A stretch of DNA of 64,000 nucleotides from Agarivorans sp. Alg241-V36. Lineage in GTDB: Bacteria; Pseudomonadota; Gammaproteobacteria; Enterobacterales; Celerinatantimonadaceae. Positions 36,730 through 49,352 of the stretch are shown here, piece after piece (position 1 is the first letter of the stretch; every line of letters begins with the position of its first letter). The stretch lies in assembly GCF_900537085.1 (NCBI RefSeq), contig NZ_UNRE01000009.1, positions 67,001 through 131,000 of the forward strand. Reading direction: 5' to 3'. The translations under genes and the position numbers were made by a program. The notes below the pieces were generated by a model, which was given only the letters and a program-made list of their open reading frames with translations, did no database searches and was not told where the DNA came from.

Positions 36730-37395
36730 ATGGTTATGGAAGATACCTACAAGATCATTATCGCTGACGACCACCCCTTGTTTCGTAGTGCTCTTCAGCA
36801 GGCAGTACAAACTGCCGTTCCCGATGCTCAGTTACTAGAAGCTGAGAATGTTAACGACCTACTTAAACTGCTCGAACTAGAGCGCGAACCCGACCTACTG
36901 TTATTAGATTTAAAGATGCCCGGCGCCAATGGCTTCTCGGCGTTTACCCACTTGCATGGCCAGTACCCAGAGTTGCCAATTGTGGTGATCTCTGCCAGCG
37001 AAGAAGTGAGCGTAGTACAGAAAGCCAAGCAACTTGGTGCCACTGGTTTTATTCCTAAATCTACGCCACTGCAACAATTAGTTGCAGCCATTCAGCACAT
37101 TATTGAAGGTGATGACTGGTTCCCAGAAGGCATAAGCTTTAGCGCTCAAGCAGAGGAAGACCCTCTCGCGGAGCGTTTAGCCAGCCTAACCCCGCAGCAA
37201 TACAAAGTATTGGTAATGCTTAACGAAGGGCTGCTTAACAAGCAAATTGCCTACGAGTTAAACGTATCGGAGGCCACCATTAAGGCCCACGTTACCGCGA
37301 TTTTCCGCAAACTTAACGTGAAAAACCGCACCCAAGCAGTAATCGCCTTGCAGCAATTAGAGCTAGAGCCAAGCCCAGAAGATAACGAGATTTAA
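36730..37395 (+). CDS. crbR: CrbR-like LuxR-type response regulator
   Basis: This 221-residue response regulator has a receiver domain (about 7-125; phosphoacceptor D60 in LLLLDLKMPG, Lys in PKSTPL) and a LuxR helix-turn-helix (about 155-215, NKQIAYELNVSEATIKAHVTAIFRKL). Its pairing with the CrbS-like kinase at 39220 and with acs at 47400 matches the CrbSR system of Vibrio, Shewanella and Pseudomonas relatives. There CrbR activates acs when acetate is to be scavenged. An AAAGG site precedes the ATG; an in-frame ATG 6 bp later is also possible. Confidence 0.88.
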   Translation: MVMEDTYKIIIADDHPLFRSALQQAVQTAVPDAQLLEAENVNDLLKLLELEREPDLLLLDLKMPGANGFSAFTHLHGQYPELPIVVISASEEVSVVQKAKQLGATGFIPKSTPLQQLVAAIQHIIEGDDWFPEGISFSAQAEEDPLAERLASLTPQQYKVLVMLNEGLLNKQIAYELNVSEATIKAHVTAIFRKLNVKNRTQAVIALQQLELEPSPEDNEI

Positions 37396-37416
37396 GAAGC
37401 TTCTTTAAATTAGAAA

Positions 37417-37432
37417 GCCCGCAAGTGCGGGC
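37417..37432. terminator. Terminator between crbR and sheath gene
   Basis: GCCCGCA/TGCGGGC is a short stem with a 2-nt loop. The minus-strand flank reads TTTCTAATTT, so it suits the sheath gene better than crbR. Confidence 0.6.
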
Positions 37433-37515
37433 TTGTACAGGTGCCTATCTGAATATCTTTGGGCTTAAAGCACACCCTGGATATAGGGCTTGCTGTTTGA
37501 GCCTATGAATTAAGG

Positions 37516-39006
37516 TTATGATTTCTGCATTTGTTGCTGGAAAGCAATTTCAATAAATTCGGCTGGGCGAGTAATTGCCACAAAAACCGTAATTCTTAAG
37601 TCTCCATCTAAAATGTCTTCACTGGTCATGGTTTCACCTAATCCAACACGAACACTATAAGCTTTGGCTGGCGTAGCTCCAACTAAACCTCCACATTGCC
37701 AAAGGCTAGTTAGGAAACTAGAAATCATGCTTTTAATCGAGCTCCAAGTTTGCGCATTATTCGGTTCAAAAACATACGCTTTAACTGCCAGCTTTATTGA
37801 TTGTTCAAGCATAATCACGGTGCGTCGCACATTTATATAGCGCCAATCCACACTATTACCATCTAAGGTTCGAGCTCCCCACACGAGATTTCCTTTACCA
37901 GTAAATGAGCGAATGGCGTTTATCGATTTACCATTAATATCTACGTTTAAGGTTTCTTGTTCTTCGTCGGAAATTTTCAAAGCGGGTGAAGTGATACCAA
38001 GTACCTCGATATTCGCAGGCGCTTGCCATACACCATCGCAATTGTCGGTCATGGTGTACAAGCCGGCCATCGCGCCAGATGGAGGAACTAGATTAAGCTG
38101 ACGACTTACTTCTTGAATTAACGCCTTGTAGATAACGCTTTTGCTGCGTAAAGTACGATCAATATCTTTGAGTTTAAACTCATCAGCATAGGTTTTATTG
38201 TTAGTAAGATCAGCCAGCAGCTTTCCTAAGTCGGAAGTGACATCAGGCCTGCCAAGTTCTTCGTTTAAAACCGCTCGTAAGGTAGCCTTACCCTCTTCAG
38301 TTAAATAACCAAAATCAATGTCTGTATCACTAACTAAAGTGCTATTTAGCCAAGGGAAATACACTGCACCAAAATCACCAATGCCCTTATTTGATACTCC
38401 CGCCCTAAATGCTGCTACGCTGTCGTCCTCATCTTGAAAACCGTTGTGTACATCCAGTAAGGCAATACGACTGCGCGCGTCGCCACCGCAATGCATCAAC
38501 ATTTGCTGCTGAACCATGTAACAATCAGCAGCAGTAAGGCTTATTGCATCAGGAATAACGAGCATGGTGGGTTCTTGCTCATTTAACAGGATTGTAATGC
38601 CAGCTAATAGCGCATCTTTAGCTATACCTGTTGTGTAATCACCAACCGATACGATGTAGCAAGGGCCACCACCATTTAAGAAAAACATCTGCATGCTTTG
38701 GTACAAACGATAGTTATTGCCACTCGTTGATACTGAGTAATGCTTTTCACTAAAAGAAACATTGTTACTTACTTCATCCGCGGCCTCTGCAAAGCCAAAC
38801 CGCAAGTTAGCTCCAACGCCAAAAATATCATGGAATTCAGCCATTGAGCATATTCGAGTGGGCTTCTTTAGTACCGACCTATTATTTTGACTGGCGGTTT
38901 GGGTATAGCCGATAAATGCGGGTACAGCAGTTGCTACTTCCACTACAGAATTTGGAAACGCACTATTTTCAACAATATACACACCGGGAGTTTTCATGTT
39001 GCTCAT
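37516..39006 (-). CDS. Orphan contractile tail-sheath protein, eCIS-like
   Basis: This 496-residue phage-tail-sheath family protein begins KTPGVYIVENSAFPNSVVEV and ATAVPAFIGYT, the N-terminal pattern of sheaths from extracellular contractile injection systems (Afp/PVC type). The C-terminal sheath domain (about 395-496) has NLVWGARTL, WRYINVRR, FEPNNAQTW, GLGETMTSEDI and ITRPAEFIEI. The ATG at 39006 with AAGGGAAATGAC upstream is preferred to the longer frame from 39066. No tube, baseplate, spike or AAA+ ATPase gene is present around it. It lies alone between crbR and crbS, opposite in strand to crbR and the same as crbS. Confidence 0.88.
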   Translation of the reverse strand: MSNMKTPGVYIVENSAFPNSVVEVATAVPAFIGYTQTASQNNRSVLKKPTRICSMAEFHDIFGVGANLRFGFAEAADEVSNNVSFSEKHYSVSTSGNNYRLYQSMQMFFLNGGGPCYIVSVGDYTTGIAKDALLAGITILLNEQEPTMLVIPDAISLTAADCYMVQQQMLMHCGGDARSRIALLDVHNGFQDEDDSVAAFRAGVSNKGIGDFGAVYFPWLNSTLVSDTDIDFGYLTEEGKATLRAVLNEELGRPDVTSDLGKLLADLTNNKTYADEFKLKDIDRTLRSKSVIYKALIQEVSRQLNLVPPSGAMAGLYTMTDNCDGVWQAPANIEVLGITSPALKISDEEQETLNVDINGKSINAIRSFTGKGNLVWGARTLDGNSVDWRYINVRRTVIMLEQSIKLAVKAYVFEPNNAQTWSSIKSMISSFLTSLWQCGGLVGATPAKAYSVRVGLGETMTSEDILDGDLRITVFVAITRPAEFIEIAFQQQMQKS

Positions 39007-39219
39007 GTCATTTCCCTTTTGTAGAGTCATAGCTGTAGACCAGCCTCTACTCTGTTTAGATATCACAAGGTGAAGTTGAAGCTACCAATTATTGGCTTAC
39101 TCCAACCTATGCGATTTGAATATTGTTCATTAATTGAAAAAATGCCACTTATGGATGTTTAAAATTGATAAAACATACCTAGCTCAGATCACCAATGCTA
39201 AACGAGCAGAGTGTGATTA

Positions 39220-42200
39220 TTACGAACTGGGTTTAAGCCAATCATTGGCCCCTTTTTGGCTATTGAGTAACTGCTGGCAGAGCTTTTTCAAACGCAGTGG
39301 GCGCAGTGGTTTACTCAAGTAAGCAAAACCTTGGGCGCGTACTCGGTCAATAAGGTCGGTTTGTCGATCGGCGCTAATCACAATGCCATGGCATGAGAGC
39401 TGCCCTTGATGAATTAGGCGTTGCAGTGCTTCTAAGCCGGTTTTGTCGTAGTCGAGGTGGTAGTCACTCAAAATCAGTTCAGGCACCCAGCCACCTTCAA
39501 TAACTTCAGCAGCGGTGTCGGCGTCTTCACAGCAAATAACTTCGTACCCCCAGCGGCTTAACAGGCTTTCCATACCGGCCAAAATGTCGGGTTCATTGTC
39601 AATGCAGAGCACTTTTGCACCTTGGGTGGTGCTAATAGGCGCGCCCTCTAATTGCTTGGTTTTGTATATGTTGGCTGCTTCTACCACCGGAACAGTAACG
39701 TAAAATACCGAGCCTTTGCCTAGCTCCGATTCCACGCCAATAGGGATCTCAAGTAGCTCGGCAAACCCCTGTGCAATGGCTAGGCCCAAACCTAAGCCTT
39801 CTTCACGAGCGCGGCCAGATTTTTGTAACTGCTGAAACTCCTCAAAAATTTGCTGTTGCTTACTCTCTTCAATGCCGGGGCCATTATCCCACACCTCTAA
39901 TCGCAGGCTATGGCCTTTACGACGAGCCCCCAGCAGCACTTTGCCTTTGGGGTTATAACGCAAAGCATTAGTGAGGAAGTTTTGCAGGATACGGCGCAAT
40001 AATTTGCTGTCGCTACTTACGGTAAGCTTGCTGGTATGTAGTTTTAGCTCTACGTCTTGCTGCTGCGCTAGCGGGATAAATTCTGCATGAATATGATCGA
40101 GTAAATGGCCAATATCAAACTGTTCTTTACTCACCACCACTCGCCCAGACTCGAGCCGCGAAATATCCAGTAAATCACTAATAATTTCTTCCGCTGAATA
40201 AAGAGACTTGTCGATGCTTGCGGCTAAAAACTTGGCGTCTTTTGCCAAGTCTGCTTCCAGTAATGAACCGGCAAACAGTTTAGCGGCATTAAGCGGTTGC
40301 ATAAGATCATGGCTCACCGCCGCTAAGAAACGGGTTTTAGATTGGTTGGCTTGTTCGGCCGCATGTGTGGCATGCACCAATTGTTGGTTAATAGATGATA
40401 ATTGCTGAGTACGCTGAGCCACCCGCGCTTCAAGAATTTCATTGGCTTGTTTCAACATATCTTCGGCTTGGCGGAAGGTAGTAATGTCACTAAAAGTCAT
40501 TACATAGCCGCCATTTGGCATGGGATTGCCTTGCACTTGAATCACTCGGCCATCACGGCGAATTCGTGAAGAAGTATGGCTATTACCCCGGCGCAAATGC
40601 TCCACTCGCCGCTCTACGTGTTCTTCAATATCACCGGGTCCACACAAGCCATTAATGGCATTGTGACGTATTAACTCTTCAATCGGTCGCCCAACCGCAA
40701 TCATACCGTTGGGAAACTCAAATAACTCGGTATAACGGCGATTCCAAGACACCAGCTTAAGCTCTTTATCAACAATAGCGATGCCCTGATCGATATGTTC
40801 GATCGCGCCTTGTAAAAGGTGCTTATTGAACTGGAGAAGCTCCGAGGCTTCTTCAGCAATCGAGGCAAATTCTTCTAATTGTACTTGCTTGCCTTGCAAG
40901 GCCGAGCCAAGTACCAAACGCGCCGAAGAAGCCCCAAATACACCACCTAACATACGCTCGGTTTCGGCAATTAACTCAACCGGCGCTTGCTGATTTGGGC
41001 TAAGGTCGAGATCGCGTGAACTAGCGTATTTGCTAAAGGCTTCACTAATTCGCTGGCTACCTAAGAAACGAGAAGCCAGCATGTGTAGCTCTTCTACGCT
41101 TACTTTTGATTGATAAAGCGCCCCTGCGTCGTCGCTTTTACCGGTTTGACCAACAAAGTTACTGGCCTGCAACCACTCAGAAACCGCTGGGCTAGAAAGC
41201 TTAGACACCAACAAGTAAGCCAATAAGTTCCCCAATAAACTAAGCACAATGCCCCAGTTATCATTGGAGATAAGCGCTCTTCCCGCCAGTTGTGGCGCAG
41301 TAAGCCACTCGGCTATCCACTGGTTAAAAATCAGTGGACTAAGGCTGTCGGTCATATTCAGTAAATTGAGCAGCCATAGGCTCATGCCTACCAGTAAACC
41401 GGCATACACGCCGGTGCGATTACCTTCGCGCCAGTACAAGCCAAAAATCAGCGGAATAGCGAGTTGGGCAATGGCAGCAAAAGATAAGAAACCAATATCC
41501 GCTAGATTGGCTAATTCCCCTAGCATTAAGAAAGTGCCCCAAGCCAGCAGCAGAATCACTAAAATGGTGGTGCGGCGAACGTTAAGCAGTAGTTCACTAA
41601 ACTGGGCAAAGTTGCGACGACTCAAACCGCCTTGCTTTAATAGCAAAGGCAACACTAAATCGTTACTCACCATAATGGCCAAGGCAATGGTAGACACCAC
41701 TACCATGCCACTAGCCGCTGAGGTGCCGCCAAGAAACGCCACCATACCTAGCCAATCGTGACCGGCCGCCAACGGCAAACTAATCACATAGTTATCGGCC
41801 GGGGTATTGGCCGGCAGCAATACATCTCCAGCAAAGGCAATGGGTAAGACAAAAATGGCGAGCAACACCAAATAGGCAGGAAATAGCCAACGGGCGGTTT
41901 TAAGATCATTCACTTGGTTGTTTTCTACCACCGTTACGTGGAATTGCCGAGGCAAACAAATAACCGCCGACATTGCCAACAACGTGGCAATCACCAAGTC
42001 TGTTACATCGGCAATGCTAATCTCTTGCCATTTAAAGCTAAAGGACTCACTCACCGCTTGCTGGGCGCTTAGTGGTAAATCCCACAATATTGATACCGCG
42101 AGTAATCCCACACAAACAAAGGCCACCAGCTTAACCAATGACTCAAAGGCGATAGCAACAATTACCCCGCGGTGATGTTCGGTAGCATCAATATGGCGAG

Positions 42201-42741
42201 TGCCAAACAACATGGTGAATATCGCTAAAGCAATACTCACAAACAAAGCGATTTGAGAGCTACTGCCTTTACCCACCGCTTCGCGCATTGCCTCGCCACC
42301 AAACAGGTCTAAACCCATCACAATGGCGCGCAGCTGCAAGGCAATATAAGGCAGCACACCAATAATACAAATAAGAGAAATAACTACAGCAAGGGTTTGC
42401 GACTTGCCATAACGTGCAGCGATAAAGTCGGCAATGGTGGTGATATGCTCGCGTTTGGCAATTAACACCACCCTCGCCAGCAGCTTCCAACCAAATAGAA
42501 ATAGCAGCACAGGGCCAAGATAAATGGGAATAAAAGATAAGAAGTTTTCGCTGGCCTGGCCTACCGTGCCGTAAAAGGTCCACGAGGTACAATAAACGGC
42601 GATAGAAAAGCTATAGAAGGCAGGCTGCCAACGCAGGCGCGCACTGGCATTTTGGTCGGTGAAATAGGCGATAACAAATAGCAGCCCTAGGTAGGCCAAC
42701 GACAGCGGAATAACTAACCAACCTTCACTTACTATTTGCAT
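39220..42741 (-). CDS. crbS: CrbS-like SLC5 transporter/hybrid histidine kinase
   Basis: The product has 1173 residues. The first about 500 form a sodium:solute symporter (SLC5) domain with around 13 helices. A linker (about 520-630, possibly a STAC-type connector) and a PAS domain (about 640-760; DQGIAIVDKELKLVSWN) follow. Then come HisKA with the phospho-His in AAVSHDLMQPLNAAK (about H810), HATPase (about 860-975; NFLTNALRYNPKG, DNGPGIE, GLGLAIAQG) and a receiver (about 1035-1160; Asp near 1091 in ILSDYHLD). This is the CrbS architecture that senses acetate state and controls acs through CrbR. In this genome the kinase is separated from crbR by the sheath gene. Confidence 0.93.
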   Translation of the reverse strand: MQIVSEGWLVIPLSLAYLGLLFVIAYFTDQNASARLRWQPAFYSFSIAVYCTSWTFYGTVGQASENFLSFIPIYLGPVLLFLFGWKLLARVVLIAKREHITTIADFIAARYGKSQTLAVVISLICIIGVLPYIALQLRAIVMGLDLFGGEAMREAVGKGSSSQIALFVSIALAIFTMLFGTRHIDATEHHRGVIVAIAFESLVKLVAFVCVGLLAVSILWDLPLSAQQAVSESFSFKWQEISIADVTDLVIATLLAMSAVICLPRQFHVTVVENNQVNDLKTARWLFPAYLVLLAIFVLPIAFAGDVLLPANTPADNYVISLPLAAGHDWLGMVAFLGGTSAASGMVVVSTIALAIMVSNDLVLPLLLKQGGLSRRNFAQFSELLLNVRRTTILVILLLAWGTFLMLGELANLADIGFLSFAAIAQLAIPLIFGLYWREGNRTGVYAGLLVGMSLWLLNLLNMTDSLSPLIFNQWIAEWLTAPQLAGRALISNDNWGIVLSLLGNLLAYLLVSKLSSPAVSEWLQASNFVGQTGKSDDAGALYQSKVSVEELHMLASRFLGSQRISEAFSKYASSRDLDLSPNQQAPVELIAETERMLGGVFGASSARLVLGSALQGKQVQLEEFASIAEEASELLQFNKHLLQGAIEHIDQGIAIVDKELKLVSWNRRYTELFEFPNGMIAVGRPIEELIRHNAINGLCGPGDIEEHVERRVEHLRRGNSHTSSRIRRDGRVIQVQGNPMPNGGYVMTFSDITTFRQAEDMLKQANEILEARVAQRTQQLSSINQQLVHATHAAEQANQSKTRFLAAVSHDLMQPLNAAKLFAGSLLEADLAKDAKFLAASIDKSLYSAEEIISDLLDISRLESGRVVVSKEQFDIGHLLDHIHAEFIPLAQQQDVELKLHTSKLTVSSDSKLLRRILQNFLTNALRYNPKGKVLLGARRKGHSLRLEVWDNGPGIEESKQQQIFEEFQQLQKSGRAREEGLGLGLAIAQGFAELLEIPIGVESELGKGSVFYVTVPVVEAANIYKTKQLEGAPISTTQGAKVLCIDNEPDILAGMESLLSRWGYEVICCEDADTAAEVIEGGWVPELILSDYHLDYDKTGLEALQRLIHQGQLSCHGIVISADRQTDLIDRVRAQGFAYLSKPLRPLRLKKLCQQLLNSQKGANDWLKPSS

Positions 42742-43010
42742 TTACAATCAATTCCCTTGAAACAGTTCATAACCAGCGTGACCAAGTATTTACGCTAGCA
42801 AAAAAGATCGGTGATAACTGTGATTAATACAAAGGCTTATCAAACTATTGCAGAAAAACTGCAGCAATGAGCTTAACAAAAACCGTAGCAAGCAATCGCC
42901 AAAACCCGCCTCAATGCGCGTTTAGACTAAAGTCGTCTAGGTTGGCAAGGTAAAAAAGACCATGCTAAATGCCGATAGTTACCTGAGTTATGAAACAACT
43001 AGGTGAGGCA
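42742..43010. promoter_or_regulatory. Divergent region between crbS and the DUF294 gene
   Basis: This 269-bp stretch should hold both promoters. I see no clear operator; a ribosome site GTGAGG lies just before the DUF294 start. Confidence 0.4.
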
Positions 43011-47026: not shown

Positions 47027-47399
47027 GGTGTTTCCCATTTGAAGTTGCTTAAAAACCCAAATGTACACGCACCTAAGCAAGATCTTAAACGAAGGCCTTT
47101 AAGTGAAACTAACAGATTAAGCCACCTCCACTTTCCGCCAAAATCATCAAGCCGAAAAAGCACTAACAAGAGAGAGTTGCTACAGTTCACAAATTAATCC
47201 AACACAGGCCGTGAGCCGCCTCTCAGTTTCAACTCGCAACATAAAAAATCACTTTGATTAATAAAGCATTTTACTATTCTTCACAAATAATTAACCAAAA
47301 GTCTAATTGTCGACAACCTGTGTCGGTGCGAGTCTAGATTCATATCTGAGACGTCAATGACGATATCCCGCCTCACATCGAGGAAGCAAGGAGAGGAAG
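47027..47399 (+). promoter_or_regulatory. Upstream region of acs
   Basis: This 373-bp gene-free stretch holds the acs leader with a good ribosome site (AAGGAGAGGAAG ending at 47399). A 10-bp palindrome TTGTCGACAA (47307-47316) lies about 90 bp before the start codon. By context CrbR should act here, but I know no CrbR consensus to test. Confidence 0.5.
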
Positions 47400-49352
47400 A
47401 TGAGTGAACAAAAGCTGTACCCCGTTAAAGCAAACATTGCAGACAACTGCTTGTTAAACGATCAGCAATATCTAGATATGTATCAAGAGTCTATCACCCA
47501 GCCTGATCAATTTTGGGGGAAGCACGGTAACGAGTTACTCGATTGGATCCAGCCTTTTAGCAAAGTAAAAAACACCTCCTACGATCCTGGCCACGTAAGC
47601 ATTAAATGGTTTGAAGATGGCCTGCTTAACGTAAGCGCCAACTGTATCGACCGTCACCTTAAGGATCGTGGCGATGAAGTGGCGATTATTTGGGAAGGCG
47701 ACAGCCCAGAAGAAGACAGCAAACTCACCTTTAATGAGCTCTACGAAAAAGTGTGTAAGTTTTCTAATGCCTTAAAAGAGCAAGGTGTTAAAAAAGGTGA
47801 AGTGGTATGTTTGTATATGCCAATGGTGCCAGAAGCTGCAGTCGCCATGTTAGCTTGTACCCGTATTGGCGCTGTTCACTCCATTGTATTTGGCGGCTTT
47901 TCTCCGGAAGCCTTATCCGGTCGAATCATTGATTCAAATTCTAAATACGTAATTACCGCCGACGAAGGAGTGCGCGGCGGACGCGGCGTACCATTAAAAG
48001 CCAACGTAGACCAAGCCTTAGAAAACCCAGATTGTGCCTTTGTTAAAAGCGTAGTGGTATTAAAACGCACTGGCGGCGAAGTAAATTGGAATGCCAACCG
48101 CGATGTTTGGTGGCACGAAGTTACCGAAAACCAGCCAGCCGAATGTTCGCCAGAGCCAATGAATGCGGAAGACCCGCTGTTCATCCTTTACACCTCTGGC
48201 TCAACTGGCAAACCTAAAGGGGTACTACATACCACCGGCGGCTACCTGCTTTACGCGACCATGACCTTTAAGTATGTGTTTGATTACCACCCAGGTGATA
48301 TTTACTGGTGTACCGCCGACGTGGGTTGGATTACCGGCCACAGCTATTTGGTTTACGGACCGCTTGCCAATGGCGCAACCACGATCTTGTTTGAAGGTGT
48401 GCCCAACTACCCTACTTCTGCACGCATGAGCGAAGTATGTGATAAACACCAAGTGACCATTTTATACACCGCCCCTACTGCAATTCGGGCATTGATGGCC
48501 CAAGGCGATGCCGCCGTGCAAGGCACCAGCCGAAGCAGCCTGCGGATTATGGGCTCGGTAGGCGAACCGATTAACCCAGAAGCTTGGGAATGGTATTACC
48601 GCACTATTGGTGATGAACGCTGCCCGATTGTCGACACTTGGTGGCAAACCGAAACCGGCGGTATTTTAATAACCCCACTGCCCGGTGCAACCGCGCTTAA
48701 ACCAGGCTCGGCCACTCGTCCCTTCTTTGGTGTACAACCGGCCTTAGTCGATAACGAAGGCAATGAGCTAGAAGGAGCCGCCGAAGGTAACCTAATTATA
48801 AAAGACAGTTGGCCGGGGCAAATGCGCACCGTATATGGTGACCACGAGCGCTTTGAGCAAACTTATTTCTCCACCTTCCCTGGCACCTATACCACTGGTG
48901 ATGGTGCGCGCCGCGATGAGGATGGTTATTTCTGGATTACCGGTCGTGTAGATGACGTACTTAACGTAAGTGGTCACCGTATGGGAACCGCCGAAATTGA
49001 AAGTGCCCTGGTTGCTCATCCTAAGATCTCAGAAGCGGCTGTGGTTGGTGTTCCTCATGAAATTAAAGGCCAAGGCATTTACGCCTACATCACTTTAATG
49101 GCGGGCGAAGAAGCCAGCGCAGAGTTGCATAAAGAAGTAAAAGCTTGGGTACGTAAAGAAATTGGCCCCATTGCTACACCGGATATTTTACATTGGGCCG
49201 AAGCCCTACCGAAAACCCGTTCTGGCAAAATTATGCGCCGCATTCTGCGCAAAATTGCCACTAACGAGACCGACTCATTGGGTGATACTTCAACCCTTGC
49301 CGACCCGTCGGTGGTTGATAAGTTAATTGAAGAAAAATCTAACGCTGCTTAA
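47400..49352 (+). CDS. acs: Acetyl-CoA synthetase
   Basis: This 650-residue AMP-forming acetate-CoA ligase converts acetate, ATP and CoA to acetyl-CoA. The P-loop-like [21 protein letters not shown], the [18 protein letters not shown] hinge and the C-terminal acetylation Lys in [11 protein letters not shown] are all present. The AAGGAGAGGAAG site fixes the start. It belongs with crbR and crbS in this window, which suggests regulation by acetate availability; the Lys is the usual target of reversible acetylation. Confidence 0.99.

Follow-up and report, generated by a model that had tools for sequence, protein, structure and literature searches.

The gene at 37516-39006 of the window (the whole 64-kb stretch of DNA analyzed here) is confirmed by sequence comparison as a full-length sheath gene of the contractile injection system (CIS) type. 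In what we regard as an even call, an ancestor of the species group acquired such a gene, together with a terminator, in the space between crbR and crbS, and the gene was then kept without its machine for a task other than injection, perhaps as a tubeless polymer. Among the options raised in a preliminary description of this DNA, a sheath reused for another purpose fits best. The sheath is regarded as a component of a machine; as a component it is known, and its occurrence outside any machine is a new form of it. If true, a lone sheath kept by selection would be a natural example, open to experiment, of a large helical polymer taken up for a new task, and it would help to show what sheaths require in order to assemble and contract. 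We found no report of a lone CIS sheath in the open literature, a scope that leaves most subscription journals outside and absence in print unproven. According to the accessible portion of its text, one CIS survey dropped loci without tube, baseplate, or initiator genes (PMC12210884), so that genes like the lone sheath would have been filtered out.

The sheath gene and its protein family

The full-length CIS-type sheath of the preliminary description was borne out by Pfam, PHROG, and PDB searches. Pfam Phage_sheath_1C matches the protein at an E value of 4.3e-13 with 49.6 bits, exceeding its cut-off of 26.9, and Phage_sheath_1 matches at 2.3e-5, below its cut-off; the PHROG tail sheath family matches at 1.2e-50, and NCBIfam gave no match for the protein. 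A sequence search of the PDB returned 20 sequences at E<=1e-3, the majority of them named as sheaths; the remaining ones (Afp2-4, Pvc2-4, and All3325) we take to be sheath proteins as well. The best match, 9r9h chain T (E 5.6e-157), aligns residues 2-496 of the lone protein with residues 2-519 of the deposited one, and it is followed by the AlgoCIS (7adz) and Anabaena (7b5h) sheaths, the homology to CIS sheaths running end to end and including both terminal arms. Its nearest solved relatives therefore come from 9r9h, AlgoCIS, and the Anabaena CIS, not from the Afp/PVC group that had been named at first. A non-sheath family is rejected on the Pfam, PHROG, and PDB matches. A phage origin is disfavored as well: 1244 phage records match, but not one of them over 80% of the protein length.

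The open frame runs on the minus strand from an ATG at 39006 to a stop ending at 37516 and encodes 496 amino acids (Table 1). An alternative GTG start lies 60 bases earlier in the same frame; the ATG is preferred because of the congeneric copy and because of the purine-rich stretch before it (AAAGGGAAA, which precedes the ATG and was taken by eye as the ribosome-binding stretch). The GC content of the gene is 42.5%, against 45.6% for the window.

Among solved structures, the sheath of 9r9h, 9r9i, 9r9n, and 9rce is homologous end to end, with both arms nearly identical to those of the lone sheath. It is present as 39 chains in these 4 entries, suggesting an assembly, whereas the lone sheath is 23 residues shorter and comes from a genome where neither a tube gene nor one for a large baseplate-type protein turned up. 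AlgoCIS Alg2 (7adz) and Anabaena All3325 (7b5h) also match both ends of the lone protein. Unlike the lone sheath, they belong to characterized CISs, as described in the accessible portions of two reports (PMC8894135 and PMC8894136). In the former, likewise in the portion accessible, Alg2 is the sole sheath protein of AlgoCIS, the sheath subunits are linked by "handshake" arms, and an attachment helix touches the tube (PMC8894135). The N-terminal arm of the lone protein in Table 1 was assigned by analogy.

The AlphaFold model of the sheath has a mean pLDDT of 71.2, with much of residues 325-389 below 50. When it was searched with Foldseek, ranks 1-31 were all CIS sheaths, at a best TM-score of about 0.4 and an rmsd of about 20 A. 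Because the core is too weak for mapping a tube-contact surface, the model was used for family identity only; the predicted structure supports this identity and adds nothing on assembly.

Table 1. Features of the sheath locus, in window coordinates unless another locus is named.
Feature	Position	Strand	Basis or remark
Sheath gene, CIS type, 496 aa	37516..39006	minus	ORF; Pfam, PHROG, and PDB searches
N-terminal arm, residues 1-35	38902..39006	minus	assigned by analogy with AlgoCIS "handshake"
C-terminal arm, residues 478-496	37519..37575	minus	close-relative invariants
crbR/erdR-type response regulator	36730..37395	plus	convergent with sheath; NCBIfam
Terminator-like hairpin, between sheath and crbR end	37415..37434	minus	downstream of sheath
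crbS stop-to-sheath start gap	39007..39219	minus	scanned for promoter, terminator, and CrbR motif
crbS/mxtR-type hybrid sensor kinase	39220..42741	minus	upstream of sheath, same direction; NCBIfam
x203	L023:13311-13922 (G002); also L032, L029		ORF; no family match

Search for the rest of the machine

A tblastn search of the window with 22 CIS-cluster proteins from genomes G008 and G030 matched the sheath alone, with no match to spike, AAA+, or tape measure within the 64 kb. This agrees with the preliminary description, in which the sheath sat alone between genes of the crbR and crbS types and the rest of a CIS was missing from the window. The labels of the tubes, spike, and AAA+ protein are backed by NCBIfam or Pfam, that of gp25 by PF04965, and that of Pvc16 by Pfam; Cis11, Cis12, LysM, PAAR, and tape are our own labels from size, order, and sequence.

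One of the options first offered was that the sheath works with an injection cluster elsewhere, and the genome-wide search for tube and baseplate genes that had been proposed alongside it lends this no support. The genome from which the window comes (G000; 4.7 Mb, 14 contigs) contains one sheath gene of the CIS type. A 50-aa query found no CIS tube in it, and a 12-row tube profile found none in any of the seven genomes of the genus, 9 of 13 other genomes being positive in the same search. This profile was sensitive enough to recover a divergent lone tube in genome G291, at 1.4e-17. PF06841 had no match in G000 but none in control genomes either, so that this result is uninformative alone; it does recognize the lone G291 tube. 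The query for the large baseplate protein was 1313 aa long and came from the G008 cluster; it is called Cis11-type from size and place, without Pfam or NCBIfam support. Besides G008 itself, G030 and G024 gave matches to it, and G000, G001, G002, and G004 gave none. The single gp25-type match in G000 sits in an operon with TssB and TssC, that is, in a type VI secretion system (T6SS). By these sequence searches, G000 appears to lack an inner tube, a large baseplate protein, and a gp25-type initiator other than that of the T6SS operon.

It is accordingly improbable, in our estimate, that the sheath acts in trans with CIS parts that are too divergent or lie on a missing replicon. Dispersed parts do occur, as the lone sheath and lone tube on two contigs of G291 illustrate. 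However, the profile that found that divergent tube drew a blank both in G000 and in G002, a genome in a single contig, the large baseplate-type protein had no match, and the sole gp25-type gene lies in the T6SS operon. In the accessible part of one study, PVC lacking single tube, baseplate, or sheath-initiator genes formed no particles (PMC12210884), and thus a sheath that has neither tube nor baseplate cannot act as an injector of known type.

We consider it very improbable that the protein serves the resident T6SS as a spare or modified sheath. G000 does have a T6SS operon, and TssB/TssC form a contractile sheath, but this is a two-subunit sheath of a separate family, unmatched by the lone protein in the PDB at E<=1e-3, where no T6SS sheath is among its 20 matches. 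Furthermore, the operon has its own TssB and TssC, and G001 and G004, both without the lone sheath, likewise carry a gp25-type gene. The T6SS operon (L092, G000:C6:128000-147900) contains, beside TssB, TssC, and the gp25-type gene, an 861-aa ORF taken for ClpV.

The crbR-crbS locus

Flanked by the crbR- and crbS-type genes, the sheath gene follows crbS at a distance of 213 bases, reads in its direction, and is convergent with crbR. The preliminary description was right about the types of these flanking genes, but their labels are less firm than it had them, and crbR and crbS are working names here. ErdR is the best NCBIfam model for the regulator at 36730, although its 271.8 bits fall short of the cut-off of 390. 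For the kinase at 39220, the match is to a NahK/ErcS kinase domain, with 405.7 against a cut-off of 400. The N-terminal 600 residues of the kinase gave no convincing Pfam match even at E<=1 and no SLC5-type match. In the accessible portions of the respective papers, ErdR and MxtR are given as other names of CrbR and CrbS (PMC8402216), and an SLC5 domain is said to mark CrbS (PMC5715377). An acs gene is present in the window at 47400-49352.

Two of the seven genomes of the genus (G000 and G002) have the sheath, each time between crbR and crbS; the other five lack it. Gene order at the locus covers G000 to G005, G006 being left out because its crbS side is not resolved. G002, a genome in a single contig, has crbR-sheath-x203-crbS, where x203 is an ORF of 203 to 207 aa that is absent from the window; G001 and G004 have crbR-x203-crbS, and G003 and G005 have neither sheath nor x203 between crbR and crbS. 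The 203-aa x203 had no match in Pfam, NCBIfam, PHROG, or PADLOC. The comparison of crbR-crbS synteny in relatives, which had been suggested at the outset, thus finds the gene at the same place in G002 and missing from G001, G003, G004, and G005. Judged by gene content, the crbR-crbS gap is a variable insertion spot, so the position may be merely where the sheath gene landed.

The G000 and G002 sheaths are 74% identical and share both their place and the hairpin behind them, and since G002 is a single contig, misassembly is unlikely. The same arrangement opposes an idea of the preliminary description, that an injection cluster might lie just beyond a misassembly. The hairpin stretches behind the two sheath genes align with a local score of 42, the best of 500 shuffles reaching 24, whereas their scores against the stretch behind x203 in G004 are 15 and 16, within those of the shuffles. 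A hairpin stretch common to G000 and G002 and not shared by G004 makes one insertion likelier than two. Eight neighboring genes (3344 codons) split the species into G000 plus G001 against G002 plus G004, with the root placed by three genes (748 codons) that include G003 and G005 (supports, 0.91 and 0.99). G000 and G002 therefore belong to different sister pairs, and this pattern calls for either a sheath in the common ancestor with at least two losses or an early exchange.

Selection on the lone sheath

Between G000 and G002, the sheath gene has acquired neither a gap nor a stop, both copies encoding 496 aa, at a dN of 0.16 and a dS of 0.89 (NG86). The flanking genes of the same two genomes have a dS of 1.11 by NG86 and 0.67 by YN00 (3344 codons); since the dS of the sheath is close to that of its neighbors, the gene is about as old in the group as its surroundings. 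Over the whole gene, the dN/dS of the lone pair is 0.18, and this value (0.179) falls within those of cluster-linked pairs (0.037, 0.045, 0.062, 0.116, and 0.331); a sixth cluster-linked pair, L003-L037, was dropped because its dS was not computable. The hallmarks of a pseudogene, namely, stops, frameshifts, and a dN/dS near 1, do not appear in the G000 and G002 sheath sequences.

In 25 cluster-linked sheaths, 120 positions are nearly invariant. Three of these 120 family invariants differ between the G000 and G002 copies, compared with 128 of the 376 other positions. Departures from the family invariants number 4 in G000, 5 in G002, 2 in the lone sheath of G166, and 25 in that of G291; when cluster-linked sheaths are left out one at a time, each departs at 0 to 11 of 99 to 104 invariants. 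In neutral simulations at 0.05 substitutions per site, none of 400 runs remained without a stop and with at most 3 changed invariants, while at 0.02 substitutions per site, 7.75% did. Taken together, the simulations and the invariants indicate that the gene has been constrained for nearly all its time alone, and on this comparison selection has kept the sheath intact since before the split of the G000 and G002 species.

Constraint is not even along the protein. Over the last 190 codons, the lone pair has a dN/dS of 0.166 (bootstrap, 0.099 to 0.234), and the five cluster-linked pairs have 0.011, 0.022, 0.033, 0.041 (0.009 to 0.110), and 0.056 (0.028 to 0.099), the upper bounds of the last two touching the range of the lone pair. 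By this measure, the C-terminal core of the lone sheath is partly released, which may be an early stage of decay. Twelve close relatives share 191 invariant columns; of these, 18 are changed in G000 and 11 in G002, whereas each of the 12, compared with the other eleven, departs at 0 to 8 of 191 to 199, a baseline lowered by the fact that 6 of the 12 form closely related pairs. Both arms are spared at these columns as judged from the alignment: in residues 1-35, none of 25 close-relative invariants is changed in G000 or G002, and in residues 478-496, 1 of 14 is changed in G000 and 0 of 14 in G002. By dN/dS, residues 1-40 are not specially constrained, with a value of 0.27 that is based on a dS of only 0.2. 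Residues 418-437, a helix in the AlphaFold model, may be the tube-contacting attachment helix. A loss of tube contact common to both lone copies was not seen, as 4 close-relative invariants in residues 401-445 are changed in G000 and none in G002.

These data bear on the suggestion, also made in the preliminary description, that the gene is a relic, the remnant of a lost CIS cluster drifting to loss. We consider this unlikely, while granting it some weight. The less constrained C-terminal core, the absence of the gene from G001 and G004, and its GC content below that of the window would all suit a relic. Purifying selection disfavors it: at the dS given above, the copies show no stop or indel, a dN/dS of 0.18, and 3 changed invariants out of 120, a neutral phase of 0.05 per site was matched by no simulation and one of 0.02 by few, and the window contains no other CIS fragment. 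A very recent loss of sheath function is possible.

Expression and control by CrbR

A matrix for the CrbR motif was built from four distinct published sites of the ACTU-type inverted repeat, as given in the accessible part of the source (PMC5715377). The best score before the sheath is 7.46, within the background of the window. The acs gene itself scores only 9.66, at a weak palindrome at 47290, below the twelve best of the window (9.91 to 16.25), and because acs is not above background, this four-site matrix cannot decide whether CrbR controls the sheath. No promoter-like match on the minus strand was found in the region scanned. There is likewise no terminator-like match on that strand between crbS and the sheath, one following the sheath instead, so read-through from crbS is possible. 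The best match to the CrbR matrix in the window, at 42922-42938 with a score of 16.25, lies just before a cNMP/CBS/DUF294 gene at 42990.

A model for a sheath without a tube

Considering these data, we propose the following scenario. First, a CIS sheath gene would have landed, along with its terminator, in the crbR-crbS gap of an ancestor of the species group. Transcripts that read through from crbS, or else an unrecognised promoter, would give rise to the protein, which would fold as a sheath and join into sheath-like polymers without a tube. Tubeless self-association is suggested by the preservation of both subunit-linking arms and has a parallel in recombinant T4 gp18, which, when made alone, forms polysheaths, although simpler prophage sheath proteins do not polymerize, as stated in the accessible portion of the source (PMC9230969). 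Finally, such polymers would do some job in the cell that is not injection. That the gene is patchily distributed and changes faster favors a dispensable ecological role, such as competition, defense, or stress, over housekeeping.

A related idea, which we judge unlikely, is interference, wherein the lone subunit co-assembles with the sheaths of CISs that incoming plasmids or other elements would build in the same cell and spoils them, giving a dominant-negative immunity. Sheath matches are present on 123 plasmid records, 40 of them predicted to be conjugative, the gene is patchy and fast-changing at a variable spot, and the arms needed for linking subunits are preserved. Against this, PADLOC gave no match for either the sheath or x203, and phages would be poor targets given the phage records counted above.

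Lone sheaths beyond the genus

Within the order, 20 of 394 genomes have a sheath at E<=1e-40, and in 16 of the 20 a tube gene adjoins it; the 4 others are G000, G002, G166, and G291. Genome G032, with two weaker matches, partial at 28%, and no tube match within 1.5 kb, was not counted. In the class, 11 other genomes of 369 have a sheath at E<=1e-60, with the tube adjoining in 9 and the locus cut by a contig end in 2. A tube match was found at all 13 loci in named genomes and at all 4 loci on viral contigs, two of these matches being weak.

On a tree of 29 rows, the four lone sheaths require three changes of label, and the lone label is not significantly clustered, 57 of 500 shuffles being as low. 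By this sequence tree, lone sheaths appear to occur in three lineages among those examined. The G000 and G002 sheaths group with the sheath of G138, from the same order, with a support of 98/95 and 54% identity. This nearest cluster-linked sheath in the tree belongs to a cluster with homologs of two tubes, a LysM-type protein, spike, PAAR, gp25, both large baseplate-type proteins, tape, and AAA+ (the labels being partly our own), whereas the lone sheath has no cluster.

This distribution opens the way for a broader hypothesis, which we put forward tentatively and somewhat short of an even call. In this scenario, CIS sheaths have repeatedly been cut loose and kept as stand-alone, tubeless, and possibly contractile polymers, acting as a scaffold, as a stress filament, or in interference, and the gene described here is a long-kept example.

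The lone sheath of G166 (L056) fills a whole contig of 7.2 kb in a genome that is 80% complete and keeps 118 of the 120 family invariants, so it was perhaps orphaned recently, or the genome is incomplete. The place of the G291 sheath in the tree is unsure, with a long branch and an odd composition. No gp25-type match was found in that genome. As its tube is on another contig, G291 may represent dispersed CIS parts rather than a sheath without a tube. Its lone sheath (L057:9906-11477) stands beside a gsp-type secretion operon. Its lone CIS-type tube (L105:10006-11013; PF06841, E 2.7e-34) lies among housekeeping genes, and the ORF after it, 185 aa long, belongs to no known family.
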